This document shows, one piece after another, positions 4,457 through 10,665 of a stretch of DNA of 64,000 nt (position 1 is its first letter; every line of letters begins with the position of its first letter). The translations under genes were made by a program, and so were the position numbers. The DNA is from Natranaeroarchaeum sulfidigenes (GTDB taxonomy: Archaea > Halobacteriota > Halobacteria > Halobacteriales > Natronoarchaeaceae), in the NCBI RefSeq assembly GCF_017094485.1, contig NZ_CP064786.1:2856788-2920787 (forward strand), in the 5' to 3' direction. The notes below the pieces were generated by a model, which was not told where the DNA came from, ran no database searches, and saw only the letters and a program-made list of their open reading frames with translations.

Positions 4457-4816
4457 CTATCGATTCAGGACATCGTCTTCTAGCTCCGCGACCGCGCTCA
4501 TTACCGCTGCGCGGTCCTCGTCATCGACCTCGAACTCGGCGAGCGCGTCGTCAAGGTGGTCCGCGACGGCCGCGAAATCCTCCGCCTGCAGATCGAGATG
4601 TGCGTGTGCCCGTCGCATGTCCACGCCGTCGTACAGGTCTGGCCCACCCGTCACGCTCGTGATGAACGCGGTCTGATGAGCTCGCTGGCGCTCCATGTCG
4701 ACGTCCTCGAAAAACGGTGCTAGCTGGTCGTCTGCGAGCACACGGTCGTAGAACTCATCGACGACAGCGGCAATGGCCTCCTCACCGCCGAGTCGGTCGT
4801 ACAGCGTCCCGGTCAT
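4457..4816 (-). CDS. Truncated haemoglobin, group I (trHbN-like)
   Basis: A 119-residue haem protein of the 2-on-2 truncated globin family, probably binding O2 or NO in the cytoplasm. Visible features are the N-terminal LYDRLGGEEAI motif, the B10 tyrosine in DEFYDRVLAD (about 23), a phenylalanine-rich CD corner (APFFEDVD) and the proximal histidine in MRRAHAHLDL at about 71. Length matches the group I family. It converges on the PhoU fusion gene with 1 nt between stops and is followed in the same direction by nothing close, so it may be monocistronic. Confidence 0.93.
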   Translation of the reverse strand: MTGTLYDRLGGEEAIAAVVDEFYDRVLADDQLAPFFEDVDMERQRAHQTAFITSVTGGPDLYDGVDMRRAHAHLDLQAEDFAAVADHLDDALAEFEVDDEDRAAVMSAVAELEDDVLNR

Positions 4817-6421: not shown

Positions 6422-8149
6422 CTACTCCGACCTGCCGACAACCAGTCGATCGCTCAGACACAGCGGCCCGCGGCGCGACACGGGGCGATCCAGCGGCACC
6501 GACGCCCCGATTCGATCGGCGAGCGCCTCGATTGTCGCCTCCTCCGTCCTTCCGGTGTCGCTGTCGGTAACGCGCACCGTGTCTTCATCCCCCCGATCAC
6601 TGACCACTACGTAGTACGGCACCCGATCCACCACAGCCGCGATGCGCTCCCCGACTGCCCGCGCTCTGTCGTCGATATCCACACGAACTCCTGCCCCCGA
6701 CAGCGTCGCCGCAACCGACCGACAGCGCTCAATCTGGCCCTGATCGATCGGAAGCAGTCGGACCTGCGTGGGGGCGATCCACGTCGGAACCCCCCGGTCG
6801 AGCACCGTCGCGGCCAGCGCCTCGATGGACCCGACAGGGGCGGTGTGAACGATGACCGGCGTCGAGCGGCGTGTTCCATCGGCGTACTCGACGCCGAACC
6901 GCTCCGGGCCGTCGACATCGACCCGGAGCCAGCCCAGCTCGACGATGTCGTCGCCGACCGACGCGAAGAACGTCACCGAGAAGGGATGCTCGACCGCGCC
7001 GCGCTCGACGGCGACCGGCCCCTCGAAGCGCCCAACGACCCCCTCGATCCACTGCTCGTGGGCCGCATAGAACTCGTCGGTGACGCGCACGACCGGCACG
7101 CGATCGATCCCGAGCGTCGAATCGAGGTCGTCGAGCAGCGCCAGCCGCTCCTCGACGACCGTCAGCGCGGCGTCGAGATCGGTCGTCGCGGTGTGAGCCT
7201 CCGGGAGCGTCACCTTCTGGGGGACCGAGTCCGGTCGCTCACACTCGCCGACCTCCCACAGCGCCGCCGGAAGCGCGTCGGCGTCGAGATCGGCGTCCGC
7301 GAAAGCCGAGAGATGGCCGGGACAGAGTGCCCGACGGGTCACCGACGCCCCCTCCACGGCCCAGCCCGCGGCCGCGACGTGCTTGCGGATCGCCGCAGTC
7401 GCCGGATCCAGTCGCACCGGCGTCCGGACCGGCGTCGCGTCCACAAACCGCTCGTCAAGCAGCGCCCGGATGCACGCACGCATCGTCAGGCCCCGGGGCG
7501 TCCATCGTAGTCCGCCTCCTGTCGCCCCTTCGTCACTCGTTGTGATCCCGTGGGCTATGAGGATCTCGTCGAGTCGGGCGGGGCGTCGCTCCCCGCGTAC
7601 GATCCCGTCGAGCACAGCCGGAACCGCGGTGGCGTTCTCGATCGGTACCAGCAGGTCGTCGGTTTCCCGGCCGTCTGCACTCGTATCGCCCGCCAGGAAC
7701 CACCTGGTCTCGCCCGCCGCTTCGTCCACGTGGTCCTCGCCGGTGAGTCGTCTGGAGCGAACCGCGTGTGGGTGGCCCTTCGTCCGCAGCTCACATTCGA
7801 GATGCCAGCCCGCCGGAACCGATCGGACGTCTCGATCGGAGAGCCCGACGCGTATCCCGTCGAGCACGTCCGTCACGACGCCCCGCCCGGCCGGGTCGTC
7901 GACGAGGTGGGGCGTCGGAACGAGTACCACCGTGTCGGTGTTGAGCTGGTCGCTCGCCCCGCGGAGTTCGGCGGCCGCCGCTGTGGCGACCGGCCCCAGT
8001 CGGCCGCCGTCGCCCGTTTCGACGCCGACGAACGCGCCGATACATCCGTCAGCAGACACCGGATCGGGATACTCCTCCGGCTCTACGTCCCCCCGTGAGT
8101 GGACCGGCTCACAGGACAGCGCGTCGGCGTGAACGGCGAGCAATCGCAT
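6422..8149 (-). CDS. Threonyl-tRNA-synthetase-like protein with degenerate catalytic core
   Basis: A 575-residue protein laid out like an archaeal ThrRS. Residues 1-145 resemble the archaeal editing domain (MRLLAVHADAL, KGHPHAVRSR). Residues 213-250 resemble class II motif 1 (GLRWTPRGLTMR). LCPGH at 275-279 matches a zinc-ligand segment. Residues 455-545 match the anticodon-binding domain (IAPTQVRLLPID). The motif 2 region near 300 (EVGECERPDSV) lacks the usual Arg-containing strand, and motif 3 reads VGSIEA at 439-445 where active enzymes have SIER. It is therefore unlikely to charge tRNA; an editing or regulatory role is inference. A TATA-like CGCTTTTTTCACC lies about 27 nt upstream. Confidence 0.8.
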   Translation of the reverse strand: MRLLAVHADALSCEPVHSRGDVEPEEYPDPVSADGCIGAFVGVETGDGGRLGPVATAAAAELRGASDQLNTDTVVLVPTPHLVDDPAGRGVVTDVLDGIRVGLSDRDVRSVPAGWHLECELRTKGHPHAVRSRRLTGEDHVDEAAGETRWFLAGDTSADGRETDDLLVPIENATAVPAVLDGIVRGERRPARLDEILIAHGITTSDEGATGGGLRWTPRGLTMRACIRALLDERFVDATPVRTPVRLDPATAAIRKHVAAAGWAVEGASVTRRALCPGHLSAFADADLDADALPAALWEVGECERPDSVPQKVTLPEAHTATTDLDAALTVVEERLALLDDLDSTLGIDRVPVVRVTDEFYAAHEQWIEGVVGRFEGPVAVERGAVEHPFSVTFFASVGDDIVELGWLRVDVDGPERFGVEYADGTRRSTPVIVHTAPVGSIEALAATVLDRGVPTWIAPTQVRLLPIDQGQIERCRSVAATLSGAGVRVDIDDRARAVGERIAAVVDRVPYYVVVSDRGDEDTVRVTDSDTGRTEEATIEALADRIGASVPLDRPVSRRGPLCLSDRLVVGRSE

Positions 8150-8186: not shown

Positions 8187-8555
8187 CTACCGGCGCAAAC
8201 TCCAGATCAGGGATCGCAGTTTGTATCCGAGCGAGCCCGACTGGTAGCCGTTCCAGCCGCTCATCCCGCCCGCGAGCGTGGTCGCGTCGTAGCCCTCATC
8301 GGTCAGGATTCGCGTTGCTCGCTTCGCGACGACGCCCATCTTGCACACGACGACGATCTCCTCGTTATCGGGCAACTCCTCGAGCGCCGCGCGGAACGAC
8401 GACTCGTCGCCGCCGCGGAGTTCGTCGTAGACGGGGATGTTATGGCTCCCATCGATCGCCCCCGACTGGTAGGCAGTTCGGGGCCGAATGTCGAGGACGA
8501 ACGGGGCGTCGTCGTCGAGTCGGTCGTCCAGCTCGTCCGGATACGTGGGTGACAC
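8187..8555 (-). CDS. Rhodanese-like sulfurtransferase domain protein
   Basis: A 122-residue single rhodanese domain. The N-terminal segment FVLDIRPRTAYQSGAIDGSHNIP and active-site loop CKMGVVAKRA (Cys71) are intact, followed by AGGMSGWNGY, so persulfide transfer is plausible. No ATG occurs at the domain start; the GTG at 8555 is chosen because a TATA-like CGTTTTTGC lies about 27 nt upstream, consistent with a leaderless transcript. It sits 38 nt after the membrane protein gene and 37 nt before the synthetase-like gene. Confidence 0.85.
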   Translation of the reverse strand: MSPTYPDELDDRLDDDAPFVLDIRPRTAYQSGAIDGSHNIPVYDELRGGDESSFRAALEELPDNEEIVVVCKMGVVAKRATRILTDEGYDATTLAGGMSGWNGYQSGSLGYKLRSLIWSLRR

Positions 8556-8593: not shown

Positions 8594-9592
8594 CTACGTC
8601 GTCTCCCGATCTGTCTCCCGGAGCACGAACGGTCCCATCGCCAGCGTTCGCCTGGCGACACTCAGGATTCGCAAGACGTAGACGATGAAGACGACGAACG
8701 GAGCGATTCCGACGGCAAAACCCGCGCTCGTGAGCCAGACGAGGTGATCGACGCCGAGCGTCGCGCCGGGGACTGCCGCCGCGTCGACGTACATGATCAA
8801 CCCGCCCATCACGACCAGCGCGGGGATCGAGACGTACAGCATCGCGCGGGACAGCTCGATCAGCTCCCACTGGAAATACAGCGTCTTGAAGTGTTCCCGC
8901 GCCGGACCAAAGAGCGTCAGGTCCTCAATTAACTCGTCGAGTGCGTCGTGGGAGTGCTCATCCAGCATCTCCCTGTGGGCCTCGCGGAGCCGCCGTGCGT
9001 GGTATAGCTGCAGCGAGTAGTCGAACCGCAGCGCTGCCCGGATGACGTCGAACGTCCCGAACTGGGCGTCGTCGAGAGCCCCGGTCACCGCCCCGGTTCG
9101 ATCGACCAGCCGCTGGACGTACTCGTCGATCTCGGTCCCCGACGGCGTCGTCTCGTCGAGTGTCCGTGCCTGACGCTCGATCCCGTCCAGCAGCTCGGCG
9201 AGAAACGCGGCTGGCTCGGGTGAGCTGATCCCGACCCCGACAGCGCGCTCGACGTCCTCGCGGAACGCCATCGACTCCTCCATGCGTTCGCGCTGGTCGC
9301 CGACTGCACCTAGCTCCTGAGCGAGCACGAGCTGGCTGATCGTGACGACGATCGAGGTCCCCGTGATGATCGCACCGATAAAGGCGGTGAAGAGAAACTG
9401 GACGCCACCCTGCTCGTCGACGATCCGGGCCAGCGGCGCGAGTTCGAGCAGGCTCGCGGCGACGAGCGTCGCGAACACCGCACCCAGCACACAGGCGGTC
9501 AGGAGCCACCGATCAGTCGTCAGTAAAACGCTACTGCGGAGCCCGTTTTCGTCGCGACTCCCACCGAGTGAGCCAGGATCGCGCTCTTCCAT
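8594..9592 (-). CDS. Haloarchaeal four-helix membrane protein of unknown function
   Basis: A 332-residue protein I do not recognise by name. Two membrane helices at about 25-50 and 65-95 (FTAFIGAIITGTSIVVTISQLVLAQ) precede a soluble, mainly helical region of about 140 residues containing a possible coiled coil (QRERMEESMAFREDVE). Two more helices at about 245-270 and 285-315 follow. The ATG at 9592 is preferred; the frame extends to a TTG at 9622, which is a poor start. GTTTTTG about 33 nt upstream may be its TATA box. It lies between the 47-residue membrane peptide and the rhodanese, downstream of PspA. Confidence 0.8.
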   Translation of the reverse strand: MEERDPGSLGGSRDENGLRSSVLLTTDRWLLTACVLGAVFATLVAASLLELAPLARIVDEQGGVQFLFTAFIGAIITGTSIVVTISQLVLAQELGAVGDQRERMEESMAFREDVERAVGVGISSPEPAAFLAELLDGIERQARTLDETTPSGTEIDEYVQRLVDRTGAVTGALDDAQFGTFDVIRAALRFDYSLQLYHARRLREAHREMLDEHSHDALDELIEDLTLFGPAREHFKTLYFQWELIELSRAMLYVSIPALVVMGGLIMYVDAAAVPGATLGVDHLVWLTSAGFAVGIAPFVVFIVYVLRILSVARRTLAMGPFVLRETDRETT

Positions 9593-9633
9593 CTCCTGTA
9601 TACTGTCGATCTGACAGCACAAAAACAGCCAGT

Positions 9634-9816: not shown

Positions 9817-10665
9817 TCAATTCTCGTCGTCCCGGAGCTCTTCGAGCTCCTCGTCGATCTCCGGGTCGGCGAGTTCGGCCTCGACATCGACATCGTCGTC
9901 GAGTTCCGTATCGAGGTCCGGCTCCGCGATCGACTGGGCATCATCGGACGTGGAGTCACTCTCGGTCTCTTTTCCCATATCTGCTTTCAGCGTATCGAGT
10001 TCGGCCTCGACAGTCCCCTGTGTGTGGACGTCTTCGAGTTCGCGTTCGAGGTCGCTCTTGTCCGAGAGCTGGTCTTCGAGGACGCCTTCCTCCTGTAGTT
10101 CGTCAAGTGCTGCGGAGCGAGCCTCCAGTTCCTCGGTGTTCTCCTCGGCGCGCTCGATCGCCCGGCTCACGTCGCCGAACTGGTCGCCAGCTCCCGTGAC
10201 GGCTTCTGAAACGCGCGCGCTCGCCTCGGCGGCCTCGTGGCGGGCCTTGATCGTCTCCTTTTTGGTGCGGAACTCCTCGATGCGCTGCTGGAGGGTCTCT
10301 TTCTGTTCGACGAGCCCGTCCTGTGTGTTCTGGAGGTCGGCGATCTGCCCCTCCAGCTCCTCGATCTGGGTCATCTTCGTCTTCTTTTTCTCGAGGGCGC
10401 GGCGGGCCAGATCCTCGCGGTCCTGTTTGACCGCCTGTCGGGCCTGCTCGTTGTGTTTCTCGACGTTGTCCTCGAGTTTGCGCTTTTGCATCTCCAGACG
10501 TTTCTTCTGGGTCGTCAGGTCGGCGATTCCCTTCTTGACGTCCTGGAGCTCGTCGCGGAGCTGTTCGTACGAGTAATCGAGCGTCTCACTCGGGTCTTCG
10601 GCCCGGTTGAGGAGGGCGTTTACCTTCGACCGGATAACGTAGCTGGCGCGCGAGAGTACTCCCAT
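9817..10665 (-). CDS. pspA: PspA/Vipp1 (IM30) family membrane-remodelling protein
   Basis: A 282-residue peripheral membrane protein of the PspA/Vipp1 (ESCRT-III-like) family, expected to bind and stabilise the cytoplasmic membrane under stress. The N-terminus MGVLSRASYVIRSKVNALLNRAEDP matches the family's amphipathic helix 0 and first core helix. Long heptad-rich coiled coil spans about 25-190 (RKLEDNVEKHNEQARQAV). An acidic tail of about 60 residues (ending EELRDDEN) is a haloarchaeal addition. The ATG lies about 25 nt from an AT box shared with the divergent hydrolase gene. Confidence 0.92.
   Translation of the reverse strand: MGVLSRASYVIRSKVNALLNRAEDPSETLDYSYEQLRDELQDVKKGIADLTTQKKRLEMQKRKLEDNVEKHNEQARQAVKQDREDLARRALEKKKTKMTQIEELEGQIADLQNTQDGLVEQKETLQQRIEEFRTKKETIKARHEAAEASARVSEAVTGAGDQFGDVSRAIERAEENTEELEARSAALDELQEEGVLEDQLSDKSDLERELEDVHTQGTVEAELDTLKADMGKETESDSTSDDAQSIAEPDLDTELDDDVDVEAELADPEIDEELEELRDDEN

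Follow-up and report, generated by a model that had tools for sequence, protein, structure and literature searches.

A degenerate archaeal-type threonyl-tRNA synthetase maintained beside a bacterial-type enzyme in Natranaeroarchaeum sulfidigenes and other haloarchaea

Background

The stretch of the Natranaeroarchaeum sulfidigenes genome analysed here (contig NZ_CP064786.1, positions 2,856,788 to 2,920,787; 64,000 nt, hereafter "the window") contains a gene whose product resembles an archaeal threonyl-tRNA synthetase (ThrRS) over its full length and yet appears to lack a working active site. An earlier note, made from the DNA letters alone, had proposed that this protein is unlikely to aminoacylate and might serve as a trans-editing factor or as a tRNA-binding sensor. 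The locus raises the question of why a haloarchaeon would keep a synthetase that probably no longer charges tRNA, and whether the gene is still in use or is slowly disappearing.

Domain organization and predicted fold

The open reading frame, Pfam and NCBIfam matches, an orthologue and the purifying selection described below all point to a degenerate archaeal-type ThrRS gene, or pseudo-ThrRS gene, on the minus strand (6422..8149; 575 aa and a stop codon), exactly where the earlier note had placed it. As the note had also read, the domain order is that of archaeal ThrRS, with an editing domain followed by a remnant of the catalytic core and by an anticodon-binding domain. The N-terminal region (residues 1-140; 7730..8149, minus strand) has the archaeal ThrRS editing-domain fold, is matched by PF08915 at residues 1-134 (E = 3.5e-15) and represents the sole PF08915 domain of the genome; it keeps 19 of the 31 residues that are invariant in the family, the reference being a set of 52 functional archaeal ThrRS. 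It is connected by a poorly conserved linker (residues 141-212; 7514..7729, minus strand; one of eight invariant residues kept) to the class II core remnant (residues 213-452; 6794..7513, minus strand), in which 26 of 62 invariant residues are found and which has no match to the class II core model PF00587 although its fold is predicted to persist. The C-terminal anticodon-binding domain (residues 453-575; 6425..6793, minus strand) is matched by PF03129 at residues 462-547 (E = 3.9e-10) and has 15 of its 20 invariant residues.

The archaeal ThrRS model PRK03991/NF003068 covers the protein from end to end with a score of 222.6 bits, which is below its curated cut-off of 484 bits. The structure predicted from 27 sequences (the window protein and related loci) has a mean pLDDT of 85, with most blocks of the core at ca. 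90, and the PDB structures nearest to this model are ThrRS fragments made of the core and the anticodon-binding domain (TM-score up to 0.76 when normalized by target length). The product is thus a real and probably folded relative of ThrRS over its full length. Its orthologue in the other genome of the same genus included in the comparison (G001) is 87% identical.

Degeneration of the aminoacylation site

In class II synthetases, the motif 3 arginine and the motif 2 loop serve the use of ATP. This arginine occurs in all 21 intact haloarchaeal and all 31 other archaeal sequences. In the window protein, the motif 3 remnant VIVHTAPVGSIEALAATVLDR (residues 432-452; 6794..6856, minus strand) carries Ala444 instead, the SIER of functional enzymes having become SIEA (within GSIEA) as reported in the earlier note. 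Orthologues with intact motif 2 and motif 3 arginines would have spoken against the earlier note; the G001 protein has the same alanine at motif 3, and the note's observation of a degenerate ThrRS stands, with the correction to motif 2 given below.

For motif 2, the earlier note had concluded that the whole arginine strand was replaced by EVGECERPDSV. The predicted structure, however, retains the motif 2 hairpin (residues 295-322; 7184..7267, minus strand), with strands at 295-304 and 312-322 and a loop that is ca. 9 residues shorter. The first motif 2 arginine may survive as Arg305, which an ungapped alignment (EFGSCHRNE / EVGECERPD) and one of the multiple alignments pair with Arg363 of E. 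coli ThrRS; another multiple alignment and the HMM alignment do not. The note's claim thus goes too far, and what has been lost, as judged from the alignments, is the loop with its later arginine; if Arg305 is indeed the motif 2 arginine, the Glu of the fRxE signature corresponds to Asp307. Because the motif 3 arginine and the motif 2 loop are both missing, the window protein is unlikely to use ATP.

The three ligand positions of the zinc/threonine site, which the earlier note did not mention, are retained in both the window protein and the G001 orthologue (Cys276, His319 in the motif 2 hairpin and His435 in the motif 3 remnant). This Cys-His-His site, kept in the genus, might still hold metal or threonine, which opens the way to a threonine or zinc sensor built on the same logic as HisZ. 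Three ligands are likewise found in the degenerate protein of a Halostella genome (G053), and two g3 species have a His in place of the Cys and keep the other two His. The ligands have nevertheless been lost in most other degenerate members, the position of E. coli Asp383, which binds the amino group in that enzyme, is occupied by Glu317, and no partner gene was identified for a sensor; this interpretation seems improbable.

Degeneration of the editing site

The segment PAGWHLECELRTKGHPHAV (residues 112-130; 7760..7816, minus strand) corresponds to the editing site in the alignments. Following the P. abyssi numbering, the window protein carries the changes F117A, Y120H, K121L and E134V (its Ala113 and Leu117 occupying the positions of Phe117 and Lys121, respectively) and retains His83 and the KGHP motif. 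Three of these positions are affected in nearly all of the 20 degenerate sequences detected in haloarchaea (see below): Lys121, which 51 of the 52 functional archaeal ThrRS have, is found in none of them, the near-invariant Phe117 in only one, and Tyr120 in none. Judged from these alignments, the N-terminal editing site of the window protein is broken, which the earlier note had overlooked.

These changes bear directly on one proposal of the earlier note, that the protein acts in trans by hydrolysing mischarged Ser-tRNA(Thr), as does crenarchaeal ThrRS-ed, a Ser-tRNA(Thr) hydrolase. The two end domains are indeed those of ThrRS-ed, since all 17 aligned degenerate proteins match both the editing-domain and the anticodon-domain models (none matches the PF00587 core), and His83 and KGHP are still in place in the window protein. 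Moreover, Tyr120 and Glu134 are dispensable, Y120A and E134A mutants being still able to edit, and catalysis in the editing fold depends on the main chain and on the tRNA (PMC4491819). In the same study, H83A was dead in one archaeal editing domain and moderately affected in another, while K121M severely impaired three of them (PMC4491819); as for Phe117, which packs against the A76 adenine by stacking, its counterpart mutant in DTD, F137A, has no activity (PMC3845328). The case for trans-editing is thus weak because Lys121 and Phe117 are precisely the residues that are gone from the window protein and from nearly all its degenerate relatives (20 and 19 losses out of 20, respectively). Furthermore, the bacterial-type ThrRS of the genome has N2 editing motifs of its own, and the ThrRS-ed model NF011500 gives only 68.2 bits for a cut-off of 362. 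Altogether, trans-editing has little chance of being the explanation.

A pocket shifted towards another aminoacyl-tRNA, i.e. a deacylase of altered specificity, has also been considered. Position 121 is a Met in DTD, so that the fold tolerates a hydrophobic side chain at this site; the window protein has Leu, the rest of the family shows L, A, T, I, H, Y or V, and the residues of the editing-fold core (H7, V43, E44, D47, H126 and P127) are retained. The very diversity of the residue at 121 within one family and the absence of the Phe that stacks on A76 make such a shift highly improbable.

A second ThrRS and the distribution of degenerate copies

The genome (one contig of 3.04 Mb, 99% complete) was searched for a second, intact thrS, whose absence would have spoken against the earlier note. 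Such a gene is located at G000:C1:419169-421118, within an open frame of 669 codons. It is of the bacterial, N2-editing type and carries the motifs of an intact synthetase together with the editing motifs HSASH and CAGPH.

Across 392 haloarchaeal genomes, PF08915 was detected in 46, the majority having no such gene. The scores are bimodal, and a clean gap separates 26 genomes (151-177 bits) from the other 20 (46-118 bits). A full-length bacterial-type ThrRS (at least 58% identical to that of the window genome) is present in 20/20 of the low-scoring and in 11/26 of the high-scoring genomes. Accordingly, the archaeal-type gene is intact in all 15 genomes where it is the only ThrRS found; where it lies beside a bacterial-type enzyme (31 genomes), it is intact in 11 and degenerate in 20, and the restriction of degenerate genes to this second group has a hypergeometric P of 1.5e-5 when kinship among genomes is ignored. 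The carriers include Halostella, Halorussus and Halovenus. The earlier note's central idea, an aminoacylation-deficient, full-length ThrRS relative beside an intact thrS, is thereby supported at the sequence level, and such a pairing recurs in other haloarchaea. A survey published in 2011 stated that no single genome had both ThrRS forms (PMC3191353); this contrasts with the 31 of 392 haloarchaeal genomes that do here, 11 of them with both forms apparently intact.

Several copies differ from this general picture. In G171 (L067), the archaeal-type ThrRS has intact core motifs but the K121T change and occurs beside a bacterial-type ThrRS, an apparent early stage of decay as far as its motifs indicate. 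Two copies are broken: that of G327 (L061) is interrupted by an in-frame TAA, and G338 (L054) has only a relic of the anticodon domain with a TAG.

The bacterial-type ThrRS of the 31 genomes fall into two groups with either 66-100% or 58-62% identity to that of the window genome, which suggests two haloarchaeal subtypes of this enzyme. Separately, stand-alone archaeal ThrRS editing domains (frames of ca. 137-230 aa with high PF08915 scores) occur in addition to full ThrRS in many genomes of the phylum (e.g. G393:C1:383524-383931 and G402:C1:172605-173012).

Genomic context and ancestry

Upstream of the ThrRS-like gene and on the same strand lie a gene for a rhodanese-like protein (8187..8552), which ends 37 bases before it, a gene for a predicted membrane protein that is part of a conserved block (8594..9622) and a pspA-like gene (9817..10665). 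Together with additional neighbours, pspA and the membrane protein gene form a block that encloses the degenerate genes of families f1 and f4 as well as the intact archaeal thrS of f8 and f3. Because this block is common to degenerate and intact copies, the window gene occupies the ancestral archaeal thrS locus, of which pspA is a marker. The rhodanese-like gene may be co-transcribed with the ThrRS-like gene; a functional link between the two was rejected, because within the loci searched the rhodanese-like gene was detected in the sister species alone. Elsewhere in the window (4457-4816, minus strand), a small protein that by eye resembles a truncated haemoglobin is encoded next to a UspA-like gene. 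In three loci of family f8, genus g40 (L060, L064 and L065), and in L045 (G389), a bacterial-type thrS stands head to head with the archaeal-type gene; the pair is at the ancestral pspA locus in f8, and its archaeal-type member is degenerate in G389.

In maximum-likelihood trees, the degenerate genes form a single clade (100/100) with long branches, nested among Halorussus copies, and eight of eleven degenerate lineages, when tried singly, are placed next to one and the same pair of Halorussus copies (support of 72-100). Independent decay in each lineage was tested, and a Halorussus-only clade was rejected (p-AU 1.5e-10), the branches being long. With regard to position, a degenerate Halorussus copy (L048) has an nhaC-like neighbour as do intact Halorussus copies, and the f1 and f4 copies are at the pspA locus. 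The degenerate genes may thus have a single origin with later exchange, or have arisen by several decays in place. A bacterial protein of Streptomyces triticirhizae (L179, NZ_RFFJ01000041.1) was also found to have 25% identity to residues 39-548 of the window protein.

Selection and domain-wise conservation

The window gene and its G001 orthologue differ at 157 nucleotides, resulting in 74 amino-acid changes for 104.5 +/- 5.5 expected under neutrality. None of 2000 neutral simulations had as few changes, and the chance of a stop-free reading frame was 0.027. The pair is under purifying selection, with a dN/dS of 0.38 (0.32 for the editing domain, 0.39 for the core, 0.31 for the anticodon domain and 0.75 for the linker). 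Constraint is nonetheless relaxed, since intact archaeal-type pairs have values of 0.09-0.29 and degenerate pairs range from 0.38 to 0.81.

Conservation is unevenly distributed along the degenerate proteins. The share of invariant residues that they keep as a family falls from 92% for the anticodon domain to 63% for the editing domain, 33% for the core and 16% for the linker. Sequence identity tells the same story: in intact enzymes it decreases from the core (75%) to the editing domain (68%) and the anticodon domain (63%), and this order is reversed in degenerate copies (anticodon domain 50%, editing domain 40%, core 30%). The preferential conservation of the anticodon domain, together with the poor conservation of the core, disfavours uniform decay and leaves the earlier note's second proposal, tRNA binding, standing as a possibility. 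Within the family, the window protein is the lowest in this domain (the 15/20 residues given above), which lowers confidence in tRNA binding for this particular genome.

Relaxed constraint could also mean that the gene is a slowly decaying relic, i.e. a redundant second synthetase with no present function. Consistent with this, it is always redundant with a bacterial-type ThrRS, dN/dS is elevated in the degenerate pairs, broken copies exist in G327 and G338, G171 provides an intermediate, and the gene has been lost from most of the 392 genomes. Uniform decay, however, would not yield the contrast between anticodon domain and core, the reading frames are intact in 17 divergent genes and neutrality is rejected for the window gene and its orthologue. 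A relic is rather unlikely on balance; it heads the alternatives, followed by trans-editing, the threonine or zinc sensor and the deacylase of changed specificity.

Proposed role and comparison with known systems

The interpretation that we favour, and to which we give an even chance, is that the gene is a displaced ancestral haloarchaeal ThrRS kept as a non-catalytic, probably tRNA-binding pseudo-synthetase. The ancestral archaeal-type thrS would have stayed at its old locus while the synthetase role was taken by the bacterial-type ThrRS. Its product would no longer charge or proofread tRNA and would bind tRNA-Thr, or a related tRNA, through the anticodon domain without performing any chemistry, with the editing and core folds serving as a scaffold. 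Its role would be one of tRNA binding or regulation without catalysis, as a regulator, a chaperone or a competitor. More tentatively, and with somewhat less than an even chance in our estimate, there would be a widespread haloarchaeal family of pseudo-ThrRS that descend from the synthetase displaced by the bacterial one, lost both catalytic sites and were re-used as dedicated regulators binding tRNA-Thr.

The genomes compared can be arranged as a series of stages that follow the replacement of a core synthetase by a foreign one: first an intact gene as sole copy, then an intact gene together with the incoming one, then incipient decay (K121T), then genes that have lost both active sites but keep the end that binds tRNA and, finally, broken copies, part of the series being found within one genus (Halorussus). 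The window protein has the attributes of a pseudo-synthetase, being derived from a synthetase, having lost its active site, coexisting with a working synthetase encoded elsewhere in the genome and being under selection. No published description of a haloarchaeal pseudo-ThrRS family was found in the literature searched, though one may exist elsewhere.

Among known proteins, the direct ancestor would be archaeal-type ThrRS (ThrRS-R; PRK03991/NF003068), with which the window protein shares domain order, the locus occupied in other haloarchaeal families and, in the tree, a position nested among intact haloarchaeal copies; it differs by the absence of the motif 3 arginine, the motif 2 loop, most core-invariant residues and key editing-site residues, and its score of 222.6 bits is far below the cut-off of 484. 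Crenarchaeal ThrRS-ed (ThrRS-2; NF011500) similarly combines archaeal editing and anticodon domains without a working core and coexists with a separate synthetase. Unlike it, the window protein is predicted to retain the core fold over its full length and has lost the editing Lys and Phe; its score is 68 bits for a cut-off of 362, and the partner ThrRS has an N2 domain for its own editing.

LeuRS-I of Sulfolobaceae and LeuRS2 of haloarchaea are also archaeal synthetase paralogues occurring beside a working enzyme (PMC9437257), although they are of class I and relate to another amino acid. In LeuRS-I the editing domain is disrupted, and the protein binds tRNA without charging it, matters for growth and still makes adenylate (PMC9437257). 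SLIMP, the SerRS-like protein of insects, and HisZ are class II synthetase paralogues without aminoacylation, and SLIMP retains tRNA binding; they belong to other lineages, have other partners and have established functions, whereas that of the window protein is deduced from its sequence. By analogy, the window protein most likely works like LeuRS-I or SLIMP, in that it would be unable to charge tRNA and would bind it. If tRNA binding is its true role, culturable haloarchaea would offer, in a protein derived from ThrRS, an archaeal equivalent of SLIMP or LeuRS-I.
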